64,000 nucleotides of DNA from Jiella pacifica (GTDB lineage Bacteria > Pseudomonadota > Alphaproteobacteria > Rhizobiales > Rhizobiaceae). The stretch spans positions 124,001-188,000 of the forward strand of contig NZ_JAAAMG010000007.1 in the NCBI RefSeq assembly GCF_010500815.1, given 5' to 3'. The position numbers and the translations under genes were made by a program. The notes below the pieces were generated by a model. The model saw only the letters and a program-made list of their open reading frames with translations. It had not been told where the DNA came from and ran no database searches. Shown here one piece after another: positions 3,301 to 51,938 of this stretch. Position 1 is the first letter of the stretch, and the number at the start of each line of letters is the position of its first letter.

Positions 3301-3427
3301 GTGCGTCGGGGATGTCGCCTCATCCGCGAGCGCTGAGTACCCTCACTGGCGGCTGGAAGCTCACTGACTTGGCCCAGTCCACAAATCAGGCGGTTCCTGT
3401 CCGCGCTGCATATCAATCCGGCGCAAG

Positions 3428-9199: not shown

Positions 9200-9418
9200 A
9201 TGATCCGCAACACCATCATCGCCCTCGCCACCGTCGTCGTCGCCGGCGCCGCCTTCTCGGCCCCGGCCAGCGCCAGGAGCTGGCACAAGCCGCACTACGG
9301 CTACGAAAACGTCACTTACAAGCAGTCCTGCCACGTCCAGAAGAAGAAGGTCTTCGCCGGCTACGACGAGTGCGGCAACAAGCTCTGGGTCTGGAAGCGC
9401 GTCCGCTCCTGCCACTGA
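9200..9418 (+). CDS. Small secreted basic cysteine-containing protein
   Basis: Seventy-two residues from an ATG preceded by a good ribosome site (AGGAG at 9185-9189). Residues 1-25 form a clear Sec signal peptide (hydrophobic ALATVVVAGAAF, cleavage after PASA). The mature part of about 47 residues is basic and aromatic, with three cysteines (SCHV, DECG, RSCH) and several Lys, Tyr and Trp residues. It has a strong terminator just downstream, so it is probably its own transcription unit. The family is not recognised; similar short secreted proteins of unknown function are common in rhizobia. An odd number of cysteines would allow an intermolecular disulfide. A longer reading frame runs in from upstream, but this ATG with its ribosome site and signal peptide is the natural start. 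Confidence 0.75.
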   Translation: MIRNTIIALATVVVAGAAFSAPASARSWHKPHYGYENVTYKQSCHVQKKKVFAGYDECGNKLWVWKRVRSCH

Positions 9419-9507
9419 GCATATCCGCCCCCTCCTCCAGCTGTCCGGCCATCCTTCGTCACCGGTCCCCCTCCCCCGCCGATCGAAAGAGGCCGGACAG
9501 TTCACGG

Positions 9508-9538
9508 AAAACCGCCCCGTCCTCCCCGGGGCGGTTTT
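9508..9538 (+). terminator. Rho-independent terminator, 12-bp perfect stem
   Basis: Arms 9508-9519 and 9527-9538 pair over 12 bp (AAAACCGCCCCG with its complement) around a 7-nt loop. The right arm ends in TTTT followed by CGTCGTTT. It lies 90 bp after the small secreted protein and before the LacI-type regulator. The A-run on the left means it could also stop transcription from the other strand. Confidence 0.85.
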
Positions 9539-9634
9539 CGTCGTTTCGGCCGGCCGCCCGAGAGAACCAGAGGAGCGTGGTGACATCCGGGGCTTCCCGC
9601 GTCCCGCTGCTTTTGCAATAGATCGCCGATCGGA

Positions 9635-10675: not shown

Positions 10676-10879
10676 GGACGGCCGGACGGCGCGGTCTCGC
10701 GCAGGGGCGCGCGATCTTGCTCCATCCGGCGCGTCGGCGCCGCAAGGTGGCGCTCATCGACGCCGTTCGATCGGGAGGATCACGGCGAATTCATAACGAA
10801 ACATGACGATCGCCGCCTCGTCTCAACGTTCGGTTAAGCTTTTCACGTCGATAATGCGCTTCAGTCAATTTTAACGGAA

Positions 10880-11341
10880 ATGAGCCCCATGAATTTCACG
10901 GCCACCGTTCTCGGCACCGGCGTTGCGGCTCTCGTCCTGGTCGCCAAGCTTCAGGCAGCTCCGGAGCCGGGCGCCAGCCTCGGCGCCCCCCTCCTCGGAC
11001 CCGGTGTCGTCACCGTCGATCCGACGATCGTCGGATCCGTCCGACCCAGCGACGCCAAGCCCTCCGCCATGCGGCTGATCGACCTCAGATCGGGCGAAAG
11101 CTGCAAGATTCTGGGCGGCCAGCCGAGCTCGGGCGCCTTCGAGCCCGCCCCGCTCCTGCCCGACTGCAGCTCTTCGCAGATCTCCCGCGTTTCACAGTGG
11201 CGCGCCGAGAGCGACGGCACGCTGGAAATGGCAGACACCCACGGCGAAACGGTGATGCGCTTCATGCCGGGGGACGGCGTCCTCTATGAATCCGTCTATC
11301 CGTCCGACGCCCTGGTGACGATCGTCCCGGCAAGGGGCTGA
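10880..11341 (+). CDS. Secreted protein resembling AprI/Inh metalloprotease inhibitors
   Basis: A 153-residue protein with a weakly hydrophobic N-terminus (VLGTGVAALVLVAKLQA) that may be a signal peptide or anchor. The C-terminal half (about 65-150) has two cysteines (ESCKILG and LPDCSSS), then VSQWRAESDGTLEMADTHGETVMRF. This order (Cys, Cys, Trp, 'LxMADxxGxxxxxF') resembles the small beta-barrel of Inh/AprI inhibitors of serralysin-type proteases. That assignment is by eye and tentative. No serralysin or type I secretion gene is nearby. The start could instead be the ATG at 10889. It appears to be a single-gene unit. Confidence 0.55.
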   Translation: MSPMNFTATVLGTGVAALVLVAKLQAAPEPGASLGAPLLGPGVVTVDPTIVGSVRPSDAKPSAMRLIDLRSGESCKILGGQPSSGAFEPAPLLPDCSSSQISRVSQWRAESDGTLEMADTHGETVMRFMPGDGVLYESVYPSDALVTIVPARG

Positions 11342-11524
11342 CATTGAGAGACGCGAAAGCCGGCCTCGGTTTGGTCAGTTCGGTGTTGTAATGCCTTGAA
11401 TGTGCGGACGCGTCGGCGTGTTGCTCGCTGGCGTGAACTGCCGATCCACTCTTTCGCCCGGCTCGCTCGAGGCTGCGCATCCGCGCGGCCTCGACTGCGT
11501 TTCGCTCCGACTTTGCAGGCCGGC

Positions 11525-12808
11525 TTACCTGCTGAGCCGAGTCGACAACACGCTCGCGGTATTGGCAACGGAGAGCGCCGGCGAGACGACGCCGCTGAAG
11601 GCGTCGAGGGCCTGCTTGACCGGGACGAAGGGAGCGGTCGCGACATAGACCATGTCGCCGTCGTGGATCCTGAAGTCCTGGGCGTGGAGAAGGCCGGACG
11701 GCTCGCGCAGGTCGAAGCGGTAGATCACCGGGATCTCGCCGGAAAGACGGGTGGCGTCCTCGCCCGGCCCGGCGCGGGTGAAGGCCTGGCCCTCGTAGCG
11801 GGCGACCATCTCGGCCCCCGGCTCGCGCCTGAGCACGAAGACGCCCTTCGGATTGGCGAGGTTGGGGTTCAGCCCGCCGACCTGGGCGAGCGCCTCGGCC
11901 AGCGACATCTCGTAGCCCTGCAGCGGCAGCTGATCGCTCTTGCCGGTCGCGCCCAGCGCCACGTAGGTGCGCGGCTGGCGGGTCAGAAGCACGACGTCGC
12001 CGGGGCGCACATAGACGTCCTCGGTCGGATCGTTGGCGAGTTCGGAGAACGGCATCTGCACCGTCCGCCCGCCGCGGGTGAGCGACACGGCGGTCTCGTA
12101 GATCGGCGTCTTCGGCCCGCCGACCCGGGCGATCAGGTCGAGCAGCTTCAACCCGGAGGCCGGGATCGGCACCGAGGCGCCGGTGACCGCATCGCCGGTC
12201 ACCGTCACCGTCGTCGAATTGCCCTGCGCCACGGCGACGACGGCCTGCGGCTCGATCGCGCGGTCCCGGAGCGCGGCGACGATGCGTTGCTCGACGGCCG
12301 AGGCGGTCGAGCCGGCGACGCGGACGCGGCCGGCATAGGGAATGGTGATCGAGCCGTCGCGGGCGACCTGCTGCTCGGGCAGACGCACCGAGGACGAGCC
12401 CTGGCCGCCGGCATTGAGCGAGGAGAACAGCCCGCCGACGCCGGCCTCGAACAGCGTCACCTGGACGACGTCGCCGACGCCGATGCCGGTGTCGGAGGGC
12501 AGCGACCGGCTGGCGATGCCGCGAAAGCTCGGCCGCGGCTCTTCCTGCTGATAGGCGAGGACGGTGTCGTCGACCGGCACGAGGAGATAGCCGTTGCGCC
12601 ACTGCACCGCGCTCTCGTCGACATTGCCGACGAAGGCACCCGCCGTCGGCCCCGCCGCCGGCAGCGCCGCGCAGCCCGACAGGAGCCCCGCCGCCAGCGC
12701 CGCAAGGACCACCCGCGCCCCACCGCGCCGATGCGGCCTCGACCGCCCGGCCACCCCGCCCAGCGCCGCCGTCGAGGAGTTCACTTGCGTCACCGTCCCG
12801 GCCGTCAT
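11525..12808 (-). CDS. Polysaccharide export outer-membrane lipoprotein (Wza/GumB type)
   Basis: A protein of 427 residues. A lipobox LLSGC is preceded by the hydrophobic stretch ARVVLAALAAG, placing the lipidated Cys near residue 46; the basic 40-residue lead is long, so a downstream GTG may be the true start. A poly-export domain follows (GIGVGDVVQVTLFEAG, then VRLPEQQVARDGSITIPYAG) and at least two SLBB-like beta-grasp units (VTVTGDAVTGASVPIP; YVALGATGKSDQLPL, with GYEMSLAEALAQVGG). These proteins form the outer-membrane channel for exopolysaccharide or capsule. No glycosyltransferases or Wzc-type kinase are adjacent, so the rest of the pathway must be elsewhere. It faces the sulfate-activation operon across 406 bp. 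Confidence 0.9.
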   Translation of the reverse strand: MTAGTVTQVNSSTAALGGVAGRSRPHRRGGARVVLAALAAGLLSGCAALPAAGPTAGAFVGNVDESAVQWRNGYLLVPVDDTVLAYQQEEPRPSFRGIASRSLPSDTGIGVGDVVQVTLFEAGVGGLFSSLNAGGQGSSSVRLPEQQVARDGSITIPYAGRVRVAGSTASAVEQRIVAALRDRAIEPQAVVAVAQGNSTTVTVTGDAVTGASVPIPASGLKLLDLIARVGGPKTPIYETAVSLTRGGRTVQMPFSELANDPTEDVYVRPGDVVLLTRQPRTYVALGATGKSDQLPLQGYEMSLAEALAQVGGLNPNLANPKGVFVLRREPGAEMVARYEGQAFTRAGPGEDATRLSGEIPVIYRFDLREPSGLLHAQDFRIHDGDMVYVATAPFVPVKQALDAFSGVVSPALSVANTASVLSTRLSR

Positions 12809-13214
12809 TCACATCCCCCAATGCCGCCGGGGCAAACGGCACGACGCTCTCGCATCGCCCCCGGCCCCTTCGCCGTCCGGACGAGCAGCGTCCCCCGACG
12901 TGCCCGTCTCGAAATGGCGGCCTTATACCCCTGCCCCAACCTACCACGAGACCGATTTCGAGTTGACCTCCGAATCGCCTGCAGAGCAGCGCAGTGAGGT
13001 TTTCACCGAGCGCTGTGCGCCATTCGACACAGGCCGTTTCGGCCCTCGTGGCTCGCCTGCGGGCGCGGCTTGCGCGGGCGGGACCATCTGCTATGCCTAG
13101 CGGCAAGCGACATCGGCAGGCGCCGAGTGCGGGCGCGACCGCCGGCTTCGCCTGATTCACCGATGCTCGATCCACGAACGACCTGCTTCGGCAAAAGAGA
13201 CGAGCGAGCCCGCA
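12809..13214. other. 406-bp divergent intergenic region between export gene and cysQ
   Basis: No gene is supported here. It must hold the promoters of the export lipoprotein (leftward) and of cysQDNC (rightward). I see no clear palindrome or confident -10/-35 pair. Confidence 0.6.
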
Positions 13215-14024
13215 TTGACCCTTGCAGAGCTGATCGCGATTGCGCTTCTGGGCGGCGAAGAGGTCCTCGCAGTCTACGCGACGCCCTTCGATGCGAAGAC
13301 GAAAGCGGACGCGTCTCCGGTGACGCAGGCCGATCTCAGATGCGAGGCGGTGATGAAGCCGCTGCTGGCGGAACTTTCGCCCGACGTCGTCATCGTCGCA
13401 GAGGAAGCCGTGTCGGCCGGCGACATGCCGGCCGAGGCCGAACGGCTGTTTCTGGTCGATCCGCTCGACGGGACGAAGGAGTTCGTCAACCGCAACGGCG
13501 ATTTCACGGTGAACATCGCCCTCGTCGAGAACGGCGTTCCGACCGCCGGCGTCGTCTACGCTCCGGCGATCGGCAAGCTGTGGGCGGGATCGGCGCGCGA
13601 AGGCGCTTCCATGGCGGACGTCGTCGACGGGCGGCTCGTCACGCAGCGAAAGATCGTCGCGCGCAAGGCGCCGGATCGGCTCGTCGCCGTCGCCAGCCGG
13701 TCGCACGGTTCGGCCGAGACGGAGGAATGGCTGAAGCGTCACGAGGTGGAGCGCTTCGTCTCGCGCGGCTCCTCGTTGAAATTCTGCCTTCTCGCCGAGG
13801 GTGAGGCCGACGTCTATCCGCGGCTCGGCCGGACGATGGAATGGGACACGGCCGCCGGCGACGCCGTGCTGCGGGCCGCCGGCGGTATCGTCACGACCCT
13901 CGACGGCGCGCCGCTTGTCTATGGCAAGCGCCGGCAAGCGGAGGACGTCGACTTCGCCAATCCGCATTTCGTCGCCTTCGCCGATCCTCTTCTTGCCCGG
14001 ACATTGGCGGAAGATGGCGCCTGA
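13215..14024 (+). CDS. cysQ: 3'(2'),5'-bisphosphate nucleotidase CysQ
   Basis: A 269-residue inositol-monophosphatase-fold enzyme that converts PAP to AMP, clearing the by-product of PAPS use. The Mg-binding motifs are present: VAEEA near residue 60, DPLDGTKEF near 82-90 and, near the C-terminus, [17 protein letters not shown]. It is the first gene of a cysQ-cysD-cysNC operon, which fits recycling of PAP made by the CysC activity. The start used here is TTG at 13215 without an obvious ribosome site. No in-frame ATG occurs before residue 47, which would remove conserved sequence, so an alternative start codon is likely. Confidence 0.93.
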
Positions 14025-14079
14025 AAGCTCCGACCCGTCGCCATGTCGCGATGGCGCCCGCCGTGGGAGGGAAGGACTG

Positions 14080-15006
14080 ATGTCGGCATCGCCGGACGCC
14101 GCGCCCCGACAACTCACCCATCTGCAACACCTCGAGGCGGAATCGATCCACGTCATGCGCGAGGTGGCGGCCGAGTTCCGCAATCCGGTCATGCTCTATT
14201 CGATCGGCAAGGACTCCTCGGTCATGCTGCATCTGGCGAAGAAGGCCTTCTACCCTTCGCCGCCGCCCTTCCCGCTTCTCCACGTCGACACGACCTGGAA
14301 GTTCCGCGAGATGATCGCATTCCGCGACCAGGCCGCCAAGGACGCGCGGATGGACCTGATCGTCCACACCAACCAGGAGGGCGTGAGACGGGGCGTCACC
14401 CCCTTCACCCACGGCGCGTCGGTCTACACCGCCGTGATGAAGACCGATGCCCTGAAGGAAGCGCTGACCACCTACGGATTCGACGCGGCCTTCGGCGGCG
14501 CTCGGCGGGATGAGGAGAAGAGCCGCGCCAAGGAGCGCATCTTCTCGTTCCGGACCGAGAACCACGGCTGGGACCCGAAGAACCAGCGGCCGGAACTGTG
14601 GAACCTCTACAACGCCCGCGTCCGCAAGGGCGAGTCGATCCGCGCCTTCCCGCTGTCGAACTGGACCGAGCTCGACATCTGGCAGTACATCCTCAAGGAA
14701 AACATCCCGATCGTGCCGCTCTATTTCGCGGCAAAGCGTCCCGTCGTCGAGCGCGACGGCATGCTGATCATGGTCGACGACGACCGCCTGCCGCTCGCCC
14801 CCGGGGAGACGCCGCAGATGCGCCTCGTCCGCTTCCGCACGCTCGGCTGCTACCCGCTGACGGCGGCGATGGACTCTTCCGCCGCAACCCTGCCCGAGAT
14901 CGTCCACGAGATGCTGATCGCCCGCACATCGGAGCGGTCCGGCCGGCTGATCGACCAGGACGAGGCCGGATCGATGGAGAAGAAGAAGCGCGAGGGCTAT
15001 TTCTGA
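14080..15006 (+). CDS. cysD: Sulfate adenylyltransferase small subunit
   Basis: A 308-residue ATP-PPi pyrophosphatase-fold subunit that, with CysN, makes APS from ATP and sulfate in the cytoplasm. The PP-loop [10 protein letters not shown] sits near residue 42. Other family blocks are [31 protein letters not shown] and [15 protein letters not shown]. The ATG at 14080 has GGGAGG-GAAGG just upstream and follows cysQ by 55 bp. The stop codon overlaps the start of cysNC (TGATG), indicating translational coupling. Length and motifs are normal for the family. Confidence 0.96.
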
Positions 15007-16895
15007 TGGAGCGGTTCGGCCCCGCGGCACTGGCGGAACATCTCGGCCGGCACGAGCGCAAGGGTCTGCTGCGCTTCCTCACCTGCGGTTCGGTGGACGA
15101 CGGCAAGTCGACGCTGATCGGCCGTCTGCTCTACGACACCAGGCTCCTCTTCGAGGACCAACTGGCGACGCTGCGGAAGGAGAGCGCCCGGCACGGCACG
15201 GCCGGCGAGGACATCGACTTCGCCCTCCTCGTCGACGGGCTGGAAGCCGAGCGCGAGCAGGGCATCACCATCGACGTCGCCTACCGCTTCTTCGCCACGG
15301 AAAAGCGCAAGTTCATCGTCGCCGACACGCCGGGCCACGAGCAATACACCCGCAACATGGTCACCGGTGCCTCCAACGCCGATCTCGCCGTGATCCTGAT
15401 CGACGCGCGCAAAGGCCTCCTCACCCAGACCCGGCGGCATGCCTACATCGCCTCGCTGCTCGGCATCAAAAACATCGTCCTGGCGGTGAACAAGATCGAC
15501 CTCGTCGGCCATTCGAAGGCGGTCTTCGACCGGATCCGCGCCGACTTCGACGGCTTCGCCCAAGCTCTCGGCTTCCAAGGCGTCCAGCCGATCCCCCTGT
15601 CGGCGCGTTTCGGCGACAACGTCACCCGGCGCGGCGGGAGCCTTTCCTGGTACGACGGTCCGACGCTACTCGAGCACCTCGAGGCGGTCGAGGTGGGCCG
15701 CCACGAGACGGAACGTCCCCTGCGCTTCCCCGTCCAATGGGTCAACCGGCCCGGTCCCGACTTTCGAGGCTATTGCGGCACCATCGCCTCGGGCGGCGTC
15801 ACGGTCGGCGAGGAACTCGCCGTCGCCGCCTCCGGGCGCACGAGCACGGTGAAGTCGATCGTCACCTTCGACGGCGAGAAAGAAAGCGCCGTCGCCGGCG
15901 AGGCGGTGACCATCACGCTTGCCGACGAGATCGACGTTTCCCGCGGCGACCTTCTGTGCAGCGCAAACCAACGGCCGGAAGTCGCCGACCAGTTCTCGGC
16001 CCACGTCGTCTGGATGCATGAGGAGCCGCTGGTTCCCGGCCGCTCCTACCTCTTCAAGATCGGAACCAAGACGGTCTCGGGCTCGGCGACTGAGATCAAG
16101 TACAAAGTCGAGGTCAACGCGTTCCAGCATCTGGCCGCCAAGAAGGTCGATCTCAACGAGATCGCGGTCGTCAATCTGTCCTTCCGCGAACCGATCGCCT
16201 TCGATCCCTATGCGGAAAACCCCGCCACCGGCGGCTTCATCGTCATCGACCGGCTGAGCAATCTGACCGTCGGCGCGGGCATGATCGACTTCGCGCTGCG
16301 GCGCGCCGCCAACATCCACTGGCAGCCGGTCGACCTCGACAAGCACAGCCGCGGCGCCGTGCTGGGCCAGCGCCCGGCGGCGATCTGGTTCACCGGCCTG
16401 TCCGGCGCCGGCAAGTCGACCGTCGCCAACATTGTGGAAAAGCGCCTCTTCGCTCTCGGCAAGCACACCTATCTCCTCGACGGCGACAACGTCCGCCACG
16501 GACTCAATCGCGATCTCGGTTTCACCGAGGTCGACCGGGTCGAGAACATCCGCCGCGTCGCCGAGACGGCGCGGCTGTTCGTCGATGCCGGGCTGATCGT
16601 GCTCTGCTCCTTTATCTCGCCCTTCCGCTCCGAGCGGCGATTGGCCCGCGACCTGCTGGAGCCGGGCGAATTCGTCGAGGTGTTCGTCGACACGCCGCTG
16701 CACGTCGCCGAGAGGCGTGACGCGAAGGGCCTCTACAAGAAGGCGCGGGAAGGCAGGATCAAGAACTTCACCGGCATCGACAGCCCCTACGAGGCGCCCG
16801 AACGCCCCGAGATCACGCTGGCCGGCGGCATGGCCGCGCCGGAGGACCTGGCCGACCAGGTGGTCGAATATCTGCGCGACCAAGGGTATATCTGA
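15006..16895 (+). CDS. cysNC: Bifunctional sulfate adenylyltransferase GTPase / APS kinase
   Basis: A 629-residue fusion. The N-terminal EF-Tu-like GTPase (CysN) has P-loop GSVDDGKST near residues 28-36, [12 protein letters not shown] and NKIDLVG, then two beta-barrel domains. The C-terminal APS kinase (CysC) has P-loop GLSGAGKST near 464-472, [10 protein letters not shown] and the lid region [19 protein letters not shown]. The product is PAPS, used for cysteine synthesis or for sulfating glycans, as known for rhizobial NodQ-like fusions. It overlaps cysD by one base. The facing polysaccharide-export gene makes a role in surface sulfation conceivable, but this is inference: no sulfotransferase is in the window. 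Confidence 0.96.
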
Positions 16896-17056
16896 GGGAT
16901 GGCGGAGCAGAACCGGAAGTGGGCACTCCCGCACTGACGTTCGAGGCGACGCTTTGGCTCGAGCGAACGCCTATCCCCTCCGTCCTGCCTGGCATTTTCC
17001 CCGCAAGGGGGCAGGATCTGACCCTTTGCCTCGTTGCGAGCGTCGGCGGCGCCGGC

Positions 17057-18055
17057 TCAATCCCCCTGCAATTCCTGAGGATCGAACTCGTAGTTCGTGC
17101 CGCAGAACTCGCAGGTCACCTTGATGGTGCCGTCTTCGATGCTCTCCTCGATCTCCTCGGCGGAGAAGTTCGACAGCACCTCGCCGATCCGCTCACGCGA
17201 GCAGGAGCAGTCGTCGATCACCTTGTCCGCCGGAAAGACCCGGACGCCGCGCTCGTGGAACAGCCGGAAGAGCAGCCGCTCGACGCCGACTTCCGGATCG
17301 GTCAGCTCCGAGGCGTCGACCGTATCGACCAGCGCCCGCACCTCGAGCCATGCGTCGTCGAACTCGTCGCCCTCTTCGTACTCCTCGGCCCCTTCCGGCA
17401 GATCGCCGCCCGGAAGGTCGGGCATACGCATGCGATCGGGGGACTCGGGCAGGAACTGGGCAATCAGCCCGCCCGCCCGCCAGCTTTCGACGAAGCCGTT
17501 CTGGCCGCGCCGGGCGATCTTGGCGACGGCGAGCTTCACCGTCGTCGGAATCTGTTCCGACTGACGGAAATAGGCCTCGGCGACGGACTCGATGCCCTGG
17601 CCGGCAAGTTCGACGATCCCCTGATAGCGCTGGGTGTAGGAGCCCTGATCGACCGTCAGGGCGAGGGTGCCGTTGCCCAGAAGCTCTTCCGAACTCGTCG
17701 CGCCGGCCTCGACGGCGGCTTGCAGCGCCTCCTCGTCGTACCGGGCATAGGCCCGGACGCTCGACGGGGTCGCATAGTCGACGACGAGCAGATCCACCGG
17801 GCCGTCCGTCTGGGTCTGGACGATGAACTTGCCCTCGAACTTCAACGAGGTACCGAGCAGCACCGTCAAGACGATCATCTCGGCGAGAAGCCGCGACACC
17901 GGCTCCGGATAGTCGTGCCGGGCCAGGATCTGGTCGAGCATCGAGCCGAGCTGGACGCCGCGGCCGCGCGCGTCGAGCACCTCGACCGCGAAAGGCACCA
18001 CGGCGTCGTCACCGACGAGCTCGCCGGCCGAAAGAACCCGCTCGTTCTCAGCCAT
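17057..18055 (-). CDS. hslO: Redox-regulated chaperone Hsp33
   Basis: A 332-residue cytoplasmic holdase activated by oxidation. The N-terminal substrate-binding core includes [11 protein letters not shown]-like sequence near 50-65 and the block [19 protein letters not shown]. The C-terminal redox switch has the four zinc cysteines in the expected pattern: CSC near residue 281 and CEFC near 314. It is the last gene of argD-argF-hslO; its start overlaps the end of argF by 8 bp, so it is probably translationally coupled. This arrangement with arginine genes is common in rhizobia. Confidence 0.95.
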
Positions 18056-18998
18056 GGGCAGGGCTTCCGGGCGTCACCTCGCCAAAGCACCAGGCGAGGA
18101 TCGACTTTTGCGCATGCAGGCGGTTCTCGGCCTCGTCGAAGACCACCGACTGCGGCCCGTCGATGACGCCGTCCGTCACCTCCTCGCCCCGATGGGCCGG
18201 CAGGCAGTGCATGAACAGGGCCTCGGGCTTGGCATGGGCCATCAGCCGCTCGTTGACCTGATAGGGCATGAAGACGTTGTGGCCGCGCGCCCGGTCCTCG
18301 CGCCCCATCGACACCCAAGTGTCGGTGACGACGCAGTCGGCGCCGGAAACCGCCTCGACGGGGTCCTCGGTCGTCAGGATCTTCGCTCCCTCGCCGCGGG
18401 CCCACTCGATGTAGCGGCCATCGAGATCGGAGCCGCTCGGGGTGGCGATCCGCAGCTCGAAATCGAAACGCGCCGAGGCCTCGGCGAAGGAGGCGAGCAC
18501 GTTGTTGCCGTCACCCGACCAGGCGAAGACCTTGCCCTTCACGGGCCCGCGCTTTTCCTCGAAGGTCATCAGGTCGGCCATGATCTGGCAGGGATGGGTA
18601 TCGTCGGTGAGGCCGTTGATCACCGGCACCGTCGCATTCTCGGCCATCTCGGTCAGCCGCTCGTGCTCGGTGGTGCGGATCATGATGGCGTCGACGTAGC
18701 GCGACAGGACGCGGGCGGTGTCGGCGATGGTTTCGGAGCGGCCGAGCTGCATCTCGGTGCCGGATAGAAACAGCGTCTCGCCGCCGAGCTGGCGCATCGC
18801 TACGTCGAACGAAACACGCGTGCGGGTCGACGGCTTGTCGAAGATCATCGCCAGCATCTTGCCGGCGAGCGGCTTGTCGCCGCCCGGCAGAAGCTGCTTG
18901 CGCCGGCAGGCGTCGTCGATGATCGACCGGAGATCGTCCTTCGAGACTTGCGACAGGTCGAGGAAATGGCGCGGGTTCTGGCTCGTCGTCATCGTCAT
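18048..18998 (-). CDS. argF: Ornithine carbamoyltransferase
   Basis: A 316-residue enzyme transferring the carbamoyl group to ornithine to give citrulline in arginine synthesis. Carbamoyl-phosphate contacts are the STRTR motif at residues 57-61 and HPCQ. The ornithine loop and catalytic-Cys region appears as [14 protein letters not shown] chose the ATG at 18998, immediately after the argD stop. A GTG nine bases upstream (19007) and an ATG at 18992 are alternatives. It sits between argD and hslO in a tight operon. Confidence 0.95.
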
Positions 18999-18999
18999 C

Positions 19000-20214
19000 T
19001 CATGCACTCGCGCGCTGCAGCGCCGGCGACAGCCGCGCCGCCGCGTTCTCGATCCGCTCCATGGCCGTGCGGATCTCCTCCTCGGTGACGTTCAACGGCG
19101 GCAACAGCCGGACGACGTTGTCGCCCGCCGGCGCGGCGAGGACGGCTTCCTCGCGCAGCGCCGCGACCATCTCGGTGTTCGGCACCCGCATCTTCAGGCC
19201 GATCAGCAGGCCCTCGCCGCGGATCGCCTCGACCACGTCGGGATAGCGGTCGGCGAGCGAGGCGAGCGATTGCTTGAAGAGCAGCGCCTTGCGACGGACC
19301 TCCTCGAGGAAGCCCTCTTCGAGCACGACGTCGAGGACGGCGTTGCCGACCGCCATGGCCAGCGGGTTGCCGCCGTAGGTGGTGCCGTGGCTGCCCGGCG
19401 TCATGCCTTTGGCCGCCTCTTGCGTGGCGAGGCAGACGCCGACCGGAAAGCCGCCGCCGAGGCCTTTGGCCGAGGCGAGGATGTCCGGCACCACGCCGGA
19501 ATTCTCATAGGCGTAGAAGCGCCCGGTGCGCCCGATGCCGGTCTGCACCTCGTCGTAGATCAAGAGCAGACCGTAGGTGTCGCAGAGCTCGCGGATCAGC
19601 TGGAGGAACGGCGTCGGAACGGTGCGGATGCCCCCCTCGCCCTGGATCGGCTCGATCAGGATCGCCGCGACGTCGGCGCCCGCCGCCGCCTGCCGCAGCG
19701 CCGCCTCGTCGCCGAAGACGAGTTGGTCGAAGCCTTCGACCTTCGGGCCGAAGCCTTCCAGATACTTCGCCTGGCCGCCCGCCGCGATGGTCGCCAGCGT
19801 GCGGCCGTGGAAGGCGCCCTCGAAGGTGAGGATGCGGTAGCGCTCCGGCTGGCCGGAGACATAGTGGTAGCGCCGCGCGGTCTTGATCGCGCATTCCAGG
19901 GCTTCGGCACCGGAATTGGTGAAGAACGCCTTGTCGGCGAAGGTGTTGGCGGTCAACCGCTCGGCCAGCCGGCGCTGGCCGGGAATCTCGAAGAGGTTCG
20001 AGGTGTGCCACAGCTTCTCGGCCTGGTCCTTCAGGGCGGCGACGAGATGGGGATGGGCATGGCCAAGGACGTTGACTGCGACACCGCCGGACAGGTCCAT
20101 GAACCGTCGCCCGTCTCGCGTCTCCACCCAGACGCCCTCGCCGCGCTCGAAGGCGAGCGGCGCGCGCTGATAGGTCTGGTAGAGAGGAGAGGTGTCGAGC
20201 GGCTGCTTGTCCAT
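19000..20214 (-). CDS. argD: Acetylornithine aminotransferase
   Basis: A 404-residue PLP-dependent class-III aminotransferase that converts N-acetylglutamate semialdehyde to acetylornithine. Recognisable blocks are the N-terminal [16 protein letters not shown], the PLP phosphate site [20 protein letters not shown], the Asp motif [14 protein letters not shown], and the Schiff-base lysine in [13 protein letters not shown] near residue 248. It is the first gene of argD-argF-hslO. Its 5' leader carries a stable hairpin (20280-20302), described separately. Length and motifs are normal. Confidence 0.95.
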
Positions 20215-30918: not shown

Positions 30919-31620
30919 CTATTGCCCCGTGCCGGCCTCCGCCTCGGCGCCCCTTGCCTCGGCCGGCGCCGCCTTCGGCCCACCCTTGGAGACGCCGACC
31001 ATCGCCGGCCGCAGCACCCGCTCGCCGATGGCATAGCCGGCCTGGACGACCTGCAGCACCGTGCCGTTCGGCACCTCGGGATTGGGGATTTCGAACATCG
31101 CCTGATGGAAGTTCGGATCGAAGCGCTGGCCCTGCGGCTCGAGCTTCCTGACCCCGTGCTTTTCGAGCGTCGCGAGAAGGCCCTTCTCGGTCATGTCGAC
31201 GCCTTCGATCAGCGCCTTCAGGCCGGAGCTCTCGTCGGCCCGATGCTCCTCGGGCACCGCATCGAGGGCGCGCGAAAGATTGTCGGCGACCGACAGCATC
31301 TCGCGGGCGAAGCTCGTGACGGCGTAGGTGCGCGCGTCCTTCACTTCCCGCTCGGTGCGGCGACGCAGGTTCTCCATGTCGGCGGCCAGCCGCAACAGCC
31401 GGTCCTTGACGTCGGCGTTCTCCGCTTCCAGCGCGGCGATGCGCGCCTGCTGCTCGTCGCCGTCGCGGGCGCCATCCTCGTCGCCCGCCGCCTCGCCATA
31501 GGCCGCGCCCCACTTCGAAGATTGCGGTGTCGCCGTCCCCGCAGCCGCGCTCTCGCCCGCAGCCGTCTCGGCGGCATCGGTCTCGTGGCTCTCGCCCTCG
31601 GGTTTGCCGGTCTCGCTCAT
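30919..31620 (-). CDS. grpE: Nucleotide exchange factor GrpE
   Basis: A 233-residue DnaK co-chaperone. An acidic, disordered N-terminus (about 1-75) leads into the long coiled coil ([33 protein letters not shown]). The C-terminal beta domain carries the family motif [17 protein letters not shown] and [22 protein letters not shown]. The ATG at 31620 has GAGGGAAG just upstream, which favours it over an earlier in-frame ATG. It lies downstream of hrcA on the same strand. Confidence 0.96.
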
Positions 31621-44310: not shown

Positions 44311-45453
44311 ATGAACGTCCATTCTCCCGTCGCGACGCCCGCCGAGGAGCTCAGGGCCAACGTTTCCGTCCCCTTCGAGGCGGCGAGGGCGATGCCGCGC
44401 TCGGTCTACACCGCGCAGGACTTCCTCGACCTCGAACTCGAGCACATCTTCTCCAGGGAGTGGATCTGCGCCGGACGGACCGACGCGCTCAAGGCGCCGG
44501 GCGACTATCTCACCCTGGAGATCGCCGGCGAGCCGATCATCGTCCTGCGCGATCGCGAGGGCACGCTCCGGGCGATGTCGAACGTCTGCCGCCACCGCAT
44601 GTCGACGCTGCTCGAAGGCCGCGGCAACACCCGCGCCATCGTGTGTCCCTATCACGCATGGACCTACAATCTCGACGGATCCTTGCGCGGCGCGCCGGCG
44701 ATGAGCCGCAACGAGAGCTTCTGCAAGACGGACGTGAAGCTGCCGGCGGTGCGCTGCGAGGAATGGCTCGGCTTCATCATGGTGACGCTCGATCCGGCCA
44801 CGCCGCCGCCGTCCAAAACCCTCGCCGAGGCCGAGGCGATGATCGCCCATCTCGATCTCGCCGGCTATTCGGAGACCTTTCGCGAAAACCACGTCTGGGA
44901 CACCAACTGGAAGGTCCTCGCCGAGAACTTCATGGAGAGCTACCACCTGCCGGTCTGCCATCGTGAGACCATCGGCGGCTCGACCAACATCGACGAGATG
45001 GTCTGCCCGGAGGGCACCGAGGCCTTCAACTGGCACACCATCCTGCGCAACGACGCAGTGCCGCTCGCCCTCGCCCATCCGAACGACACGCGGCTCACCG
45101 GCGACGAACGCCGCACCACCTGGCTTTTCGCGATCTATCCCTCGCTGATGATCTCGATCACCCCAGGCTATTTCTGGTGTCTCAGCCTCCACCCAGAGGG
45201 ACCAGGCAAGGTACGCATCCTCTTCGGCGGCGGCATGTCGGCGCCCTACATGGCCGATCCGCAAGCGCCGGCCCAGCTCGCCACCGTCAAGGCGATGCTC
45301 GACCACGTCAACGCCGAGGACCGCGGCTGCACCGAGCGGGTCTATCGCGGCCTTCTCAGCCCGCTCGCCGACCCAGGCGCCCTGTCGCATCTGGAGCGCC
45401 CGAACTTCGAATTCGCGCAATATGTCTCGCGGAAGGTGAACGGCGCCGGGTGA
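44311..45453 (+). CDS. Rieske-type aromatic ring-hydroxylating oxygenase, alpha subunit
   Basis: A 380-residue oxygenase. The Rieske [2Fe-2S] ligands are CRH near residue 91 and CPYH near 112. The catalytic domain (SRPBCC fold) has the mononuclear-iron motif NFMESYHLPVCH near 206-217. Such proteins hydroxylate aromatic rings or demethylate quaternary amines; the substrate cannot be told. No ferredoxin or reductase gene lies beside it, so its electron donor is elsewhere. It stands alone between the oxidase operon and the octapeptide-repeat gene, converging with the latter. Confidence 0.88.
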   Translation: MNVHSPVATPAEELRANVSVPFEAARAMPRSVYTAQDFLDLELEHIFSREWICAGRTDALKAPGDYLTLEIAGEPIIVLRDREGTLRAMSNVCRHRMSTLLEGRGNTRAIVCPYHAWTYNLDGSLRGAPAMSRNESFCKTDVKLPAVRCEEWLGFIMVTLDPATPPPSKTLAEAEAMIAHLDLAGYSETFRENHVWDTNWKVLAENFMESYHLPVCHRETIGGSTNIDEMVCPEGTEAFNWHTILRNDAVPLALAHPNDTRLTGDERRTTWLFAIYPSLMISITPGYFWCLSLHPEGPGKVRILFGGGMSAPYMADPQAPAQLATVKAMLDHVNAEDRGCTERVYRGLLSPLADPGALSHLERPNFEFAQYVSRKVNGAG

Positions 45454-45593: not shown

Positions 45594-48500
45594 TCAGACC
45601 GACTGATAGGATCTGTACGCCGACATGATCGCCGCGATCTGCAGCGAATCCAGCGCCTGGGTCTGCGTCGGCGTGATCGCCTGCAGCTGTTCAAGTCTCA
45701 GGCTGCCGATATCCGTCTCGGAAAGGCCGGGTAGTGCGTAGTTGCTGATGGCCGCGATATCGTCCGTCGAGAAGGTCGCGAGTTGTTCCGTGCTGAGGGC
45801 ATCGATCTGCGCCGCGCCAAGCCTCGCAACCTGCGTCGAGGTCAGGGCTTCGGCCTGCTCTGCGCTGAGAAGCGGGATCAGGTCGAGGGTCAGCCCGGCC
45901 ACCGACGTCGGATTGAGCGCGGCGATCTGCGCCGGCGAGAGCGCGGTGATCTTGTCGGTGCCGAAGGTCGCGAGTTGCACGGCGTTGAGTGCGGCGATCT
46001 GCGTCGTCGTCAGCGCCTGGATCTGCGCGGTGTCGAGCGCCCGCAACTGATAGTAGGACAGGGCCTCGATCTGGCCCGTCGTCAGGGCGGCGATCTGGTC
46101 GCCGCCGAGCCCGGCGATCTGGTCGGCGGAAAGCCCGGCGATCGCCGCCGGCTTGATCGCCGCAAGATCGCTGGGGGAGAAGGTGGCGAGGTCGGCGGCG
46201 CCGAGCGCGGCGATCTGGCCCGAAGTGAGGGCCGCGATCTGCACGGTCGAGAATGCGTCGATCTGGGCGGAGTTCATGGCTTCGATCTGGGTCGGCGTGA
46301 TGCCGGAAATCGCCCTGGTGGTCAGGGCGGCAAGCTGCGCCCCGGTCAGCGCGGCAACGGCCTGCGGGCCGAAGGCGGCCGCCTGGGTAGCGCTGACGGC
46401 GGCGATTTGCGTCGGTGTCAGCGCCTCGACCTGCGAGGGCGTCAGGGCCGCGACCTGGCTTGTCGTGAGCCCGGCTATCTGGGTCGCCTTGAGAGCCGCC
46501 ACCTGATCGACGCGCAGGCTGGCGATCTTTTCCGCCGGCAGGCCGGCGATCCCGGTGGCACTGAGTGCGGCAATCGCGTCCGCCGACAAGGCTTCCAGTG
46601 ACGCGCTGCTGAGCGAAGCAACCTGCGCCGCGTTCAGCGCCGCGATCTGGCTCGTCGTCAGGCTTTGAACCAGGCTGGGGCTGAAGGCCTCGATCTGCGT
46701 GGTGGTCATGCCGGCGATCGCCTTGCTGCCGAGCGCGGCGAACTGCTCGGTGGACAGCCCGGTGACCTTGTCGGCCGACAGGCCGGCGATCTGGCTCGCC
46801 GTGAAGGCGCCGACTTGTGCGGTCGTCAGGGCGTTCATCTGCGCCGGAGAGAGCGCTTCGATCTGGCCGGCCGTCAGTCCGGCGATCTGGCTCGTCGTCA
46901 GCCCGGAAAGCTGTTCGGCGGAAAGAGCGGCGGCATTGTCGTTCGACAGGCCGGAAATGGCGCCGGCGTTGAGTGCCGCAATGTCGGCGGCGGAGAAGGT
47001 CTGCAGGGCCGCGGCCGTCAGCGCGCCCAGCTGCGTCCCCGTCAGGGCCCCCAGCTGCGTTGCCGAGAGAGCGTCGACCTGCTCGACGGTCAGGCCGGCG
47101 ATTTGACCGGCACCGAATCCCGCGACGGCCTTGGCGCTGAGCTCGGCGACTTGATCGGGCGACAGGGCGGCGAGTTGACCCGCCGAAAGAGCCCCGGTCT
47201 GCGCCGCCGTCAGGCCGCGGACCTGGCTGGTGGAGAGGCCGGCGATCTGGCCCGGCGTCAAGGCGGTTATCTGAGCCGTCTTCAGCCCGGCGACCTGGGC
47301 CGGCGTGAGAGCGGCCACCTGCTCGACGCTGAGACCGGCGACGACGTCGCTCGACAGGCCGGCGAGCGCGCTCGTTCCGATGGCCGCGATGTCGGCGGGC
47401 GAGAACGTCGCGAGATCGTCCGCCGTCAGCGCCGCCATCTGCGTCGCGTTCAAGGCGGCGACCTGCGCCGGGGTCAGGGCTTCGGCCTGCTGGGTACTCA
47501 GGCCGGCGACATGGGCGGCGGTGAGGCCGGACACGGCTTTGGCGTTGATCGCTGCGATCTGGTCGCCGGACAAGGTGGCCAGGGCATCGCTCGACATCGC
47601 CGCGAGCTGCGTCGAGTTGAGGCCGCGGACCTGTGTTGCGGTCAGCGATTGGACTTGCGACGGCGTCAGCGCACCGACCTGGGCCGGTTTCAGCCCAGCG
47701 ATCTGCGTCGCGGTCAGCGCTGCGACCTGGCTCTGGCTGAGACCGGGGATCGCCTCGACCGAAAGTCCGGAAAGCGCCGAGACGCTCAGCGCCGCCATGT
47801 CTTCCGGCGCGAACGTCGCCAGCTGGTCGGCGCTGAACGCCGCCAGCTGCTGGGTCTTGAGGGCCGCCACCTGGCTCGGCGCGAGGGCTTCGACCTGCGT
47901 GGGCATCAAGGCCGCGACCTGGGCGGCGGTCAGGCCGGGAATGGCCTTGGCGCCAAGAGCGGCCACCTGTTCGGCCGACAGGACGGCGACACTCTCCATC
48001 GGCAGGGCGCCGAGCTGCGTCGCCGTGAAGGCGCGGATCTGCGTCGTCGTCAGCGTTTCGGTCTGGGCGGGGGTGAAGGCCGCAATCTGGGCGGGCTTGA
48101 GCAGCCCGAGCTGGGCCGGCGTCAATCCGGCGAACTGGTCGTTGCTCATGAAGGCGATCGTTTCGGGCGAAAGGCCGGAAATCGCCCTCGTGCTGATCGC
48201 CGCGACATCGGCGCGGGAGAATTTCTCGAACGCCTCCGTCCCGAACGCGGCAAGCTGCGGCGCCGTGAGATTGGCAATCTGCGCCGAAGTCAGAGCCTCG
48301 ACCTGGGCCGGCGTGAAAGCCGCGACCTGGGCGACCGTCAATCCGGCGACCGCGCCGGGTGTGATGGCTGCGATCTGCTCGGGCGAAAATTCCCGGATCG
48401 CTTCGACCGACAGGGCGGTGAACTGCCTGCCATTCATCACCCGAAGCTGCGCAGGCGACAGGACGTCGGCCTGGCTGGCGCTGAAGGCGGCGACCTGGCT

Positions 48501-49844
48501 CGGTTTCAGCGCCGCCATCTGCGGAGCCGTCAGGGCGGAGACCTGCTCGAGCGACAGGCCGGCGACGTTTTCCGTGGAGAGCCCCGCGATGGCGTAGGAG
48601 TTGATCGCCGCCACGTCGCCGGTCGAAAAGGTCGCGAACTGCTCGCCCGTCAGGCTGGCGATCTGGGTCAGGCCGAGATTCGAGACCTGCGCCGGCGTCA
48701 AAGCTTCGATCTGGGTGGCGGAGAGGCCGGTCACCTGGGCGGCGGTGAGACCCTTGACGGCCTTGGCATCGATGGCCGCGATCTGAGCGGAGGAGAAGGC
48801 CGTCAAGGCGTCGCCGAGTGCCGTGACATGGGCCGCATTGAGGGCGCCGATCTGGCTGGCGGAAAGGGCCGCCACCTGGCTCTCCGAAAGCCCCTTGATC
48901 TGGCTGGCCTTCAGCGCGGCGATCTGGCTCGTCGTCATGGCGCCGAGCTGATCGGTCGTCAGCGCTGAGACCGCCGGGACGGAGAGCCCGCTGACGGCCC
49001 TCGGACTGATCGCCGCGACATCGGCCGCCGCGAAGCTCGCCATCTGCTCGGCACTGAAAGCCGCGATCTGCCGCGAGCTCAGACCGGCGACCTGCTGCGA
49101 CGTCAGCGCCTCGACCTGGGAGGGGCTCATCACCGCGATCTGCTGGCTCGTCAGGCCGGTGACGGCCCGCGTGCTGAGGGCGGCGATCTCGGGGGCCGAG
49201 AGAGTGGCGAAGTTTTCCGGCGAGAGCGCGGCGACTTGCGCCGAGCCGAATGCGGCGACCTGGGTCGTGGAGAGGGCCTCGACCTGATCGACAGTCAGCG
49301 CCTTCACCTGATTGGCGTTCAGGACGGCGATCTGGCTGGGCGTGAAGGCGGAGGTCTGCTCGACGCTCAGCGAGACGATCTTGTCGCCGGACAGCCCTGC
49401 AAGACTGGGCACGCTGATGGCGGCGATGTCCGCCGGCGTGAAGGTCGCCAGATCCTCGATGCTTAGGTTCGCGATCTGCGTCCGGCTGAGATTGGCGATC
49501 TGGGACGGCGTGAGCGCTTCGGCCTGGTCCGTCGTGAAGCCAGCGATCTGCGAGCTGTGCAATGCGCTGATCTGCGAGCCGGTCAGGCCGGCGATCTTGT
49601 CGGCGCCGAGCGCGGCCAGCTGTTCCTGGGTCAGGCCGGGAATGGCCTTGGCCGAAATCGCCGAGACCTGATCGGAGGACAGAGAGGCGATCCCATCGCT
49701 CGACAATGCGGCGATTTGCGAAGCGGACAACGCGCCGACCTGGGCCGTCGTCAGCACCGCCAGATCTTCGGCGGTCCAAGTGGCCAGCGTCCTGGCCGGG
49801 ATGGACTTGGTCTGCAGGGTGCTTTGGGAGGAGATCGTCGTCAT
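45594..49844 (-). CDS. Giant octapeptide-repeat protein, family unknown
   Basis: A protein of 1,416 residues. Residues 1-23 are non-repetitive and end in the only Trp. Then come 173 consecutive octads, 172 of eight residues and one of seven (octad 41, nt 48795-48815), and a 10-residue tail (MSAYRSYQSV). The consensus is [S/T]-x-x-Q-[I/V]-x-[A/G]-[L/F]. There is no Cys, few aromatics and little charge. Special octads of the form x-x-x-A-[I/V]-x-G-L recur every 10 then 7 octads. No signal peptide, lipobox, membrane helix or known secretion tail is seen. A frame remains open upstream to 50090, but that part is unlike the rest; the ATG at 49844 has GAAGGG upstream. The hut operon is 427 bp upstream. 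I do not recognise the family; a solenoid or filament is a guess. Confidence 0.85.
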   Translation of the reverse strand: MTTISSQSTLQTKSIPARTLATWTAEDLAVLTTAQVGALSASQIAALSSDGIASLSSDQVSAISAKAIPGLTQEQLAALGADKIAGLTGSQISALHSSQIAGFTTDQAEALTPSQIANLSRTQIANLSIEDLATFTPADIAAISVPSLAGLSGDKIVSLSVEQTSAFTPSQIAVLNANQVKALTVDQVEALSTTQVAAFGSAQVAALSPENFATLSAPEIAALSTRAVTGLTSQQIAVMSPSQVEALTSQQVAGLSSRQIAAFSAEQMASFAAADVAAISPRAVSGLSVPAVSALTTDQLGAMTTSQIAALKASQIKGLSESQVAALSASQIGALNAAHVTALGDALTAFSSAQIAAIDAKAVKGLTAAQVTGLSATQIEALTPAQVSNLGLTQIASLTGEQFATFSTGDVAAINSYAIAGLSTENVAGLSLEQVSALTAPQMAALKPSQVAAFSASQADVLSPAQLRVMNGRQFTALSVEAIREFSPEQIAAITPGAVAGLTVAQVAAFTPAQVEALTSAQIANLTAPQLAAFGTEAFEKFSRADVAAISTRAISGLSPETIAFMSNDQFAGLTPAQLGLLKPAQIAAFTPAQTETLTTTQIRAFTATQLGALPMESVAVLSAEQVAALGAKAIPGLTAAQVAALMPTQVEALAPSQVAALKTQQLAAFSADQLATFAPEDMAALSVSALSGLSVEAIPGLSQSQVAALTATQIAGLKPAQVGALTPSQVQSLTATQVRGLNSTQLAAMSSDALATLSGDQIAAINAKAVSGLTAAHVAGLSTQQAEALTPAQVAALNATQMAALTADDLATFSPADIAAIGTSALAGLSSDVVAGLSVEQVAALTPAQVAGLKTAQITALTPGQIAGLSTSQVRGLTAAQTGALSAGQLAALSPDQVAELSAKAVAGFGAGQIAGLTVEQVDALSATQLGALTGTQLGALTAAALQTFSAADIAALNAGAISGLSNDNAAALSAEQLSGLTTSQIAGLTAGQIEALSPAQMNALTTAQVGAFTASQIAGLSADKVTGLSTEQFAALGSKAIAGMTTTQIEAFSPSLVQSLTTSQIAALNAAQVASLSSASLEALSADAIAALSATGIAGLPAEKIASLRVDQVAALKATQIAGLTTSQVAALTPSQVEALTPTQIAAVSATQAAAFGPQAVAALTGAQLAALTTRAISGITPTQIEAMNSAQIDAFSTVQIAALTSGQIAALGAADLATFSPSDLAAIKPAAIAGLSADQIAGLGGDQIAALTTGQIEALSYYQLRALDTAQIQALTTTQIAALNAVQLATFGTDKITALSPAQIAALNPTSVAGLTLDLIPLLSAEQAEALTSTQVARLGAAQIDALSTEQLATFSTDDIAAISNYALPGLSETDIGSLRLEQLQAITPTQTQALDSLQIAAIMSAYRSYQSV
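45627..49775 (-). repeat. 24-bp tandem coding repeat with 408-bp higher-order period
   Basis: This is the DNA encoding the 173 octads. The basic unit is 24 bp. Marker octads sit at ordinal positions 6, 16, 26, 33, 43, 50, 60, 67, 77, 84, 94, 101, 111, 118, 128, 135, 145, 152, 162 and 169. From octad 16 on the steps alternate 10 and 7, so the structure repeats every 17 octads (136 residues, 408 bp). Confidence 0.9.
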
Positions 49845-50270: not shown

Positions 50271-51938
50271 TCACCCCAGGATCCCCGGCAGGTCGAGCTG
50301 CATGTCCCGGGCACAATCGAGCGCCTCCTCGTAGCCCGCATCGGCGTGGCGCATGACGCCGGTGGCCGGGTCGTTCCACAAAACGCGGCCGACTCGGGCA
50401 GCGGCCTCGTCGGTGCCGTCGCAGACGACGACCATTCCGGCATGCTGGGAAAAGCCCATGCCGACGCCGCCGCCGTGATGCAGCGACACCCAGGTGGCGC
50501 CGGATGCGGTGTTGAGGAGGGCGTTGAGCAGCGGCCAGTCGGAGACGGCGTCCGAGCCGTCCTTCATCGCCTCGGTCTCGCGGTTGGGCGAGGCAACGGA
50601 GCCGGAATCGAGGTGGTCGCGGCCAATGACGACGGGGGCGGAGAGTTCGCCCTTCGCCACCATCTCGTTGAAGGCGAGGCCGAGGCGGTGGCGGTCGCCG
50701 AGGCCGACCCAGCAGATCCGTGCCGGCAGGCCCTGGAAGGCGATGCGCTCCCGCGCCATGTCGAGCCAGCGGTGGAGATGGGCGTCGTTCGGCATCAGCT
50801 CCTTCACCTTGGCGTCGGTGCGGTAGATGTCTTGCGGATCGCCGGAGAGCGCCGCCCAGCGGAACGGGCCGACGCCCCGGCAGAACAGCGGCCGGATATA
50901 GGCCGGCACGAAGCCCGGAAAGGCGAAGGCGTCGGTCACCCCCTCCTCCAGCGCCATCTGGCGGATGTTGTTGCCGTAGTCGACGGTCGGAACGCCGACG
51001 CGATAAAGGTCGAGCATCGCGCGAACATGGACCGCCATCGAGGCCCGCGCGGCCTTTGCGACGGCCTTCGGATCGCGCTCGCGCTTGTCCTCCCACTCAG
51101 CCATGGTCCAGCCGGCCGGCAGATAGCCGTTGACGGGATCATGGGCCGAGGTCTGGTCGGTGAGGATGTCGGGATGAACGCCGCGCCGCACGAGTTCGGG
51201 CAGCACCTCCGCCATGTTGCCGAGCAGCGCGACCGAGACCGGCTTCTTCTCGGCGTTGGCTCGTCCGATGATCGACAGCGCGTCGTCGAGGTCTTTCGCC
51301 TCGACGTCGACATAACGTGTCTTCAGGCGGAACTCGATCGAGGATGGGCGACACTCGACGGCAAGGCAGGAGGCGCCGGCCATGGTGGCGGCCAGCGTCT
51401 GGGCGCCGCCCATGCCGCCGAGGCCGGCCGTCAGGATCCACTTGCCGGCGAGATTGCCGCCATAATGCTGACGGCCCATCTCGACGAAGGTCTCATAGGT
51501 GCCCTGCACGATGCCCTGGCTGCCGATATAGATCCACGAGCCGGCCGTCATCTGGCCGTACATGGCAAGGCCCTTCTTATCCAGCTCGTGGAAATGGTCC
51601 CAGGTCGCCCAATGGGGCACGAGGTTGGAATTGGCGATGAGGACCCGAGGCGCGTCCTTGTGGGTCTTGAAGACGCCGACCGGTTTGCCCGACTGGACGA
51701 GCAGCGTCTCGTCGGCTTCCAGCCGCTTCAGTGTCGCAACGATCCGGTCGAAGCTCTCCCAGTCTCGCGCCGCCCGGCCGATGCCGCCATAGACGACGAG
51801 CTCTCCGGGCTTTTCGGCGACGCCCGGATCGAGATTGTTCATCAGCATGCGCATCGGCGCTTCGGTGAGCCAGCTCTTGGCGGACAGCTCGCTCCCATGC
51901 GGGGCGCGGATGTCGCGGGCATTGTCGATGCGGGTCAT
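50271..51938 (-). CDS. hutU: Urocanate hydratase
   Basis: A 555-residue enzyme that converts urocanate to imidazolonepropionate using tightly bound NAD as electrophile. The NAD site is [13 protein letters not shown] near residue 170; other family blocks are GNAEVLPEL-like [30 protein letters not shown] and [16 protein letters not shown]. The C-terminal Gly/Asp-rich tail is present. It is the last gene of hutI-hutH-hutG-hutU, 19 bp after hutG. Confidence 0.97.

Follow-up and report, generated by a model that had tools for sequence, protein, structure and literature searches.

The 64,000-nucleotide stretch of Jiella pacifica DNA analysed here (contig NZ_JAAAMG010000007.1, positions 124,001 to 188,000; the window) encodes a giant protein made almost entirely of octapeptide repeats (octads), which matches the Pfam repeat family ALTTAQ_rpt (PF20080) and is confidently predicted to be a solenoid of short helices. 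The reading that we hold with moderate confidence is that the protein is a long ALTTAQ solenoid rod, that its family is O-glycosylated and probably exported, and that the window copy is an orphan and probably unglycosylated form. The repeat family has already been catalogued in Pfam, and what is new here is the helix per octad, the charge period of 3.40 octads, the fixed number of octads and the association with glycosyltransferase family 41 (GT41). Genomes, loci and families other than the window are cited by our own handles (G, L and f numbers).

The original prediction, made from the letters of the window, knew of no characterised family that fits the octads, and this has to be withdrawn as PF20080 matches the window protein with 672.7 bits in 49 stretches (gathering cut-off 26.4). 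The profile search thus found a known repeat family, but its 38-position model is far shorter than the 136-residue higher-order period that had been described for the array. A six-frame search of the own genome with PF20080 gave 36 matches, all within the ALTTAQ gene. The sole PDB sequence match at E ≤1e-5 was HeliScrew4 (PDB 9zem; phmmer E 1.9e-17 over 109 residues), and nothing approached a cut-off when the window protein was searched against the NCBIfam profiles. CAAP1 and DUF4351 passed the whole-protein cut-offs with no stretch passing singly, and were taken as composition. RTX GGxGxD nonapeptides were absent from the window protein. Transcription activator-like (TAL) effector repeats are 33–35 residues long; the period here is 8/136, and no such family was among the Pfam matches. 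The literature search found no publication under ALTTAQ, PF20080 or HeliScrew, the matches listed for octapeptide repeats were prion papers or proceedings or dealt with prion-like aggregation, and no Jiella paper on repeat proteins or glycosyltransferases was among the matches listed. The giant type I protein that it returned is described as a BIg-repeat protein (PMC5156944).

The fold was predicted with AlphaFold2 for two parts of the protein. The model of residues 351–622, for which the protein's own super-units served as the alignment, has a predicted local distance difference test score (pLDDT) of 94.9 and a predicted template modelling score of 0.83, and shows 34 helices of 4–6 residues for 34 octads and no strand. 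The model of residues 1117–1416 was built on an alignment of five orthologues (5 of 6 loci; J. pelagia, L094, was omitted for its split frame); it has corresponding scores of 93.6 and 0.82, is also free of strands and closes with a 16-residue helix (residues 1400–1415) covering part of the last octad and the tail. The short structural coil per octad that had been suggested for a solenoid is therefore borne out by the models, in which each octad forms a short helix. The S/T-x-x-Q pattern agrees with a helix capping box, and Ser/Thr at octad position 1 would cap the helix, with Gln at position 4 at the site of the capping-box partner and positions 5 and 8 forming the core.

Among solved structures, the best Foldseek match was mesothelin (E 7.2e-6, template modelling score (TM-score) 0.31, root-mean-square deviation (rmsd) 11 Å, 16% identity), the other matches listed include ARM/HEAT-type proteins, and the viral fold search gave TM-scores ≤0.39 among the matches listed. 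The Foldseek matches, together with a Pfam LRR_EndoS score of 57.5 bits (cut-off 27.9) and weak leucine-rich-repeat matches in PDB, would fit a solenoid of a known type (leucine-rich-repeat or HEAT/ARM/TALE) that goes by a different name. A leucine-rich repeat has one strand per repeat, however, and a leucine-rich repeat was rejected because both models are strandless and no LRR_EndoS stretch passes on its own; the period is 8 and not 20–40 residues and TM-scores stay at or below 0.39 among the matches listed, so that this explanation as a whole is very improbable.

The autocorrelation of the protein has its maximum at lag 136 (0.405, against 0.311 at 128 and 0.314 at 144), with further peaks at 272, 80, 72, 56 and other multiples of 8, and that of the DNA has its maximum at 408 bp, as the original prediction had anticipated. 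The marker octads that it had placed in two alternating classes were also found at both phases named, with Gly at position 7 in 90% of the octads at each of phases 8 and 15 of 17 in the six Jiella orthologues. The 136-residue period is thus real, but the 17-octad super-unit drawn from it is better explained as five screw turns of 3.40 octads each; the marker steps of 10 and 7 octads would then be about three and two turns, and the two marker classes would be neighbours on a single face, at 127 and 148 degrees.

The screw was suggested by the charge pattern. The spectrum of the number of acidic residues (D/E) per octad in the six Jiella orthologues is dominated by a single peak, at a period of 3.40 octads (power 0.596, against 0.051 for the next peak and a 95% shuffle limit of 0.092), and Gln at octad position 4 (Q4) has a peak at 8.51 octads. 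A mere 17-octad duplication unit would place power on any 17/k, and the charge power falls on k = 5. When the 17 phases were ordered by screw angle, D/E fell in the arc from 254 degrees past 0 to 42 degrees, with the Gly markers at 127–148 degrees. Of the eight multipliers compared, the one for this ordering gave the highest correlation between neighbours (0.75, the next being 0.58). Family f1, which includes Jiella, has 34 arrays of at least 40 octads, and in all but one of them the top D/E peak lies at 3.36–3.45 octads and exceeds the shuffle limit (33 of 34). In genera with arrays that are not locked to 17, D/E at 3.39 and Q4 at about 8.7 and about 2.44 agree on 0.294–0.295 turns per octad, the two Q4 periods being aliases of the third and second harmonics, respectively, of the 3.39 period. 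The search for each peak was then confined to the band where it was expected. Of the 16 arrays with 100 or more octads, 14 gave three estimates that agree to within 0.001, and G083a (low Q4 peak giving 0.301) and G083b (weak high Q4 peak giving 0.2925) did not. We propose that successive octads form a screw in which one turn takes about 3.40 octads (27 residues), giving about 51 turns in the whole protein, with an acidic stripe along one face of the rod and the Gly marker octads on the opposite face.

Several observations weigh against this screw. Its angle is deduced from sequence alone, and any feature repeated every 17 octads necessarily falls on some 17/k. Within f1, the array G023a has few acidic residues and no significant D/E peak, and in the other families the charge period is less distinct: D/E is strongest at a period of 2.38–2.44 in 5 of 5 arrays of G474, with 3.4 weaker (2.44 would be its second harmonic), and mostly about 2.0 in the f47 genomes, where 3.39 was found in 1 of 13 arrays. 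Among G784, G872 and G809, the top D/E peak is near 3.4 in four arrays out of six and elsewhere in the remainder. The units of G784a and G872 are 24 octads (7 turns at 3.43) and those of G809b are 31 octads (9 turns at 3.44), but the near-identical units of these three arrays make such harmonics automatic, and the strongest D/E period of G784a and G872 is 2.0. The undivided G784b array has a D/E peak at 3.44 (power 0.37, limit 0.10), and the peaks of G809a, b and c lie at 3.41–3.44. A screw of 3.4 octads per turn is therefore likely in f1 and less clear elsewhere. The f47 genomes (L075–L078) carry open frames of about 3,200–5,700 residues, mostly of alternating octads (16-residue period), a distinct architecture.

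The ALTTAQ family is carried by 7 of the 10 genomes of the genus, the own genome included. The six orthologues counted throughout (with the window and without J. pelagia) are 55.5–74.1% identical and show no whole-octad difference; alignment gaps amount to one residue in the window and three in G009, with a further three at the C terminus in four of the sequences and 11 at the contig start in G008. Invariant columns are most frequent at octad position 4 (120 of 173), followed by 8 (81) and 7 (71). The ratio of nonsynonymous to synonymous substitution rates (dN/dS) is 0.23–0.45 in all 15 pairs. Between the window and J. endophytica, octads at the same position are 61% identical, against ≤46% at the other octad offsets tested, which indicates that octads retain their own identity within the genus. 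In J. pelagia (G005; L028, 7662–12034) the orthologue is split between two frames of 1,289 and 226 residues, through a sequencing error or as a pseudogene.

The gene has a G+C content of 68.7% (87% at third codon positions) and is overlain by long open frames in other strands and frames, which would suit a functionless 24-bp repeat that has expanded, selfishly or neutrally, in a high-GC genome. We consider such an expansion scarcely credible in view of the dN/dS values, the lack of octad gain or loss among the six orthologues and the same-position identity with J. endophytica. Between genera, array lengths differ freely. Two attempts to relate them were given up: the nearly equal length of the window and G070 proteins (1,416 and 1,415 residues) is not taken as octad-for-octad orthology, offsets 0, −17 and +34 being near equal (0.442, 0.441 and 0.432), and may be a coincidence, and a general rule of length differences in multiples of 136 fits G083b and, to one residue, G026b but fails for G039, G065b and most others.

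The neighbourhoods of the arrays were compared in 26 array-bearing genomes with fetched flanks, which were limited in extent, with contigs sometimes ending nearby; G043 (family-positive, but no octad array found), G755 (also family-positive, none by eye in the gene list) and G194 (positive, flanks unexamined) were left out. A GT41 (O-GlcNAc-transferase-like) gene was present in the flanks of 13 of these genomes from four families, namely 8 of the 10 f1 genomes outside Jiella (G012, G020, G023, G026, G053, G065, G083 and G102), both f44 genomes (G474 and G539), both f131 genomes (G784 and G872) and the single f169 genome (G809). The eight GT41 members scanned contain PF13844 with tetratricopeptide repeats. 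In f1, a UDP-galactopyranose mutase gene accompanies array and GT41 in 8/8 cases (one by a PF03275 scan, seven by tblastn at 75–81% identity), and a third gene with a PF12248 domain occurs in three of them (G065, G083 and G102; two scanned). Compared with the G083 enzyme, the f1 GT41s beside arrays have 60–73% identity; the family member that scores next has 37%, and no other exceeds 42%. A GT41 at least 60% identical to the G083 enzyme was found in 8 of 101 family f1 genomes (G083 included), all of them array-positive (hypergeometric P 2.45e-9, with 12 of 101 genomes array-positive at E 1e-9, G043 included; P 8e-10 without G043). The count of 12 is a lower bound, as the cut-off misses at least Jiella G004.

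Genes of type I exporters were also seen: the arrays of G474 and G784 are flanked by ATP-binding cassette (ABC) and HlyD genes, with an additional outer-membrane efflux protein gene in G474, and that of G872 by an ABC gene. The arrangement of ALTTAQ, GT41 and UDP-galactopyranose mutase, with or without the PF12248 gene, recurs in other genera of f1, at L060, L063, L067, L068, L072, L097 and L098, of which L063 and L072 sit among flagellar or chemotaxis genes, and no description of this neighbourhood was found in the literature search. At G474 (L079, 1–9303) a terminal domain of the array carries acidic motifs resembling LDLDGNG/DIDGDGD (by eye), and the GT41, ABC, HlyD and efflux genes follow.

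The presence of GT41 was accompanied by a difference at octad position 2. Per genus, Ser/Thr at this position makes up 0.60–0.88 in the eight f1 genera with a close GT41 and 0.30 in Jiella, 0.30 in G039 and 0.50 in G070, which lack one (Mann-Whitney one-sided P 0.006); the window protein has 0.28. No difference by GT41 status was seen for Ser/Thr at positions 1 (P 0.50) and 3 (P 0.92). Within genomes, the GT41-adjacent copy was the richer one in position-2 Ser/Thr in all seven that could be compared (G784, G083, G026, G065, G023, G102 and G809), from 0.94 vs 0.31 in G784 down to 0.75 vs 0.68 in G809, where the copies G102b and G023c rest on 13 and 28 octads. Pro at position 2 reaches 0.18–0.25 in Jiella and 0.19 in G039, compared with ≤0.09 in the other f1 proteins. 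Cys is absent from 18 of 18 proteins and the isoelectric point (pI) is 4.05–4.96 in 17 of them; among six further proteins, G872 has one Cys, ahead of the array. A Cys-free and acidic composition is a trait of known type I substrates.

These results make glycosylation of the relatives by GT41 likely and export of the family plausible. The ancestral glycosylated and exported role is suggested because the relatives adjoin GT41 and often UDP-galactopyranose mutase, and because exporter genes occur in two families; the Jiella form is most likely unglycosylated because it has no adjacent or close GT41 and is poor in position-2 Ser/Thr. The best GT41 of the own genome is 34% identical and lies on a different contig from the array; across the genus, GT41s reach 34–43% identity only, in 8 of 10 genomes, and UDP-galactopyranose mutases only 33–37%, in 4 of 10 and not in the own. 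We propose that the ancestral rod would be glycosylated in the cytoplasm by the adjacent GT41 and then carried to the cell surface or outside, and that the Jiella form would be an unglycosylated rod or adhesin of fixed length. A naked surface rod is the most likely single story for the window copy.

Against glycosylation and export stand the following points. The fetched flanks yielded no GT41 in the four f47 genomes (4/4), and neither GT41, UDP-galactopyranose mutase nor a type I exporter set in 7/7 Jiella, where the ABC matches are only about 30% identical. Exporter genes adjoin the array in only 3 of the 26 genomes, and the co-occurrence P is nominal, as the genomes are related and the GT41 query is itself array-adjacent. 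G070 keeps position-2 Ser/Thr at 0.50 with no close GT41, and mean locus G+C is lower where GT41 is present, with overlapping ranges (Jiella G009, 0.616 with Ser/Thr 0.28; G012, 0.649 with 0.64). G023a is non-acidic (pI 6.11), and the Jiella protein has neither a strongly hydrophobic N-terminal stretch (19-residue mean ≤1.30) nor an RTX motif.

The last of these features would also be expected of a fixed-length structural rod or ruler that stays in the cytoplasm and is never exported, the GT41 of its relatives being an internal modifier. The octad number fixed in six orthologues at 55–74% identity agrees with such a rod, as does the lack of any obvious neighbour shared by five Jiella loci mutually or with the window (by eye; G005 not included). 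Yet type I exporter genes adjoin the array in f44 and f131, the protein resembles known type I substrates in being Cys-free and acidic, and lengths vary freely between genera; we regard the cytoplasmic rod as unlikely, though the most serious of the alternatives. Some loci point instead to a flagellum-associated protein, with arrays and GT41 serving flagellar assembly or flagellin glycosylation. FliF and flagellin genes lie near the array in L063 (G026, 165–20000), flagellin and MotB-like genes in L072 (G083, 609–17722), FlhA in L096 (G539) and FlhB in L102 (G809), and FlmG of Caulobacter is described in PMC7591256 as O-glycosylating flagellins in the cytoplasm. However, inspection by eye showed no flagellar gene in the remaining 20 of 24 genomes with gene lists (G005 and G234 not included), the G474 and G784 arrays pair with type I exporter genes instead, and in f1 a close GT41 was found only in array-positive genomes, which leaves a flagellar role improbable.

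Returning to the exported rod, a wider proposal can be made only tentatively, namely that ALTTAQ proteins form a new class of bacterial glycoprotein rods on which a dedicated GT41 (OGT/SPINDLY-like) would place sugars at octad position 2 as a regular lattice before the rods are exported to the surface, the Jiella form being naked and frozen in length. As part of it, the super-units of 17, 24 and 31 octads would be whole turns (5, 7 and 9) of the roughly 3.4-octad screw. If true, this would be a bacterial case of repeat-directed O-glycosylation and a modular rod with its length and sugar spacing written in octads. The GT41-adjacent relatives give a concrete clue to the function of the rod, and the family becomes a testable system with a screw geometry, a predicted partner enzyme and a predicted modification site, for which Jiella is a natural contrast, with the close enzyme and most of the sites both missing.

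The features of the gene and its neighbours are listed below. The original partition of the protein into 23 residues, 172 octads, one heptad and 10 residues was reproduced; as residues 8–23 form two further octads, a division into 7 residues, 175 octads (number 43 being the heptad) and 10 residues describes the protein better. The J. endophytica array likewise starts at residue 8 and has 175 octads. The heptad is private to the window genome among the six aligned, the other five having a full octad. The open reading frame could also open 82 codons upstream; MTTISSQ is common to all four aligned orthologues whose N terminus is complete and the residues before it vary among the species compared (except in J. 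pelagia, whose sequence closely resembles that of the window), so the upstream start is disfavoured and the start chosen earlier is the likely one. Two alternative-frame open reading frames over the array, of 767 residues (window 46665–48968, plus) and 1,362 residues (45691–49779, minus), probably arise as a side effect of the 24-bp repeat and the high G+C. Elsewhere in the window, two short tandem repeats lie at 12665–12716 and 30922–30988 (24 and 32 bp, about two copies each).

Features of the ALTTAQ gene and its neighbours (positions in the window)
Feature	Position	Strand	Basis or remark
ALTTAQ octad-repeat coding sequence	45594..49844	minus	1,416 residues and stop codon; open reading frame list, Pfam, dN/dS
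Seven-residue head MTTISSQ, residues 1–7	49824..49844	minus	orthologue alignment
Octads 1–42, residues 8–343	48816..49823	minus	octad parsing
Single heptad, residues 344–350, as 43rd octad	48795..48815	minus	one-residue deletion relative to orthologues
Octads 44–175, residues 351–1406	45627..48794	minus	octad parsing; residues 351–622 modelled, pLDDT 94.9
SYYQLRALD, invariant in six aligned Jiella orthologues	46032..46058	minus	alignment
Ten-residue tail	45597..45626	minus	covered in part by predicted helix, residues 1400–1415
Rieske/ring-hydroxylating oxygenase alpha subunit, downstream neighbour	44311..45453	plus	no evident link
Urocanase (hutU), upstream neighbour	50271..51938	minus	no evident link

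When compared with known systems, the window protein shares the octad repeat itself with PF20080, whose 38-position model lacks the 136-residue and 3.4-octad periods. HeliScrew4 (9zem) has octads of the same sequence pattern but is 120 residues long; it was absent among the Foldseek matches listed, so that the comparison is one of sequences only, from which we would guess that it is probably a designed protein. Mesothelin, a superhelix of short helices, is alike as a helical Foldseek match (E 7.2e-6), whereas its TM-score of 0.31, rmsd of 11 Å and 16% identity are too weak to equate the two superhelices. HMW1C is a member of GT41 and HMW1 is a beta-helix adhesin, so that here too a GT41-type enzyme is linked with a large surface protein. 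As described in PMC3012730, HMW1C glycosylates the adhesin HMW1 with N-linked sugars and HMW1 uses two-partner secretion, unlike ALTTAQ, whose helical octads are rich in Ser/Thr and whose exporter genes, in the genomes that show them, are of type I. By its description in PMC7591256, FlmG resembles the ALTTAQ-linked GT41 as a cytoplasmic O-glycosyltransferase from an alphaproteobacterium and differs in its substrate, flagellin. Serine-rich repeat adhesins, which PMC6973325 describes as Gram-positive and exported by accessory Sec, differ in these two respects and by description are similar to the proposed rod in being repetitive, O-glycosylated and exported surface proteins with dedicated glycosyltransferases.

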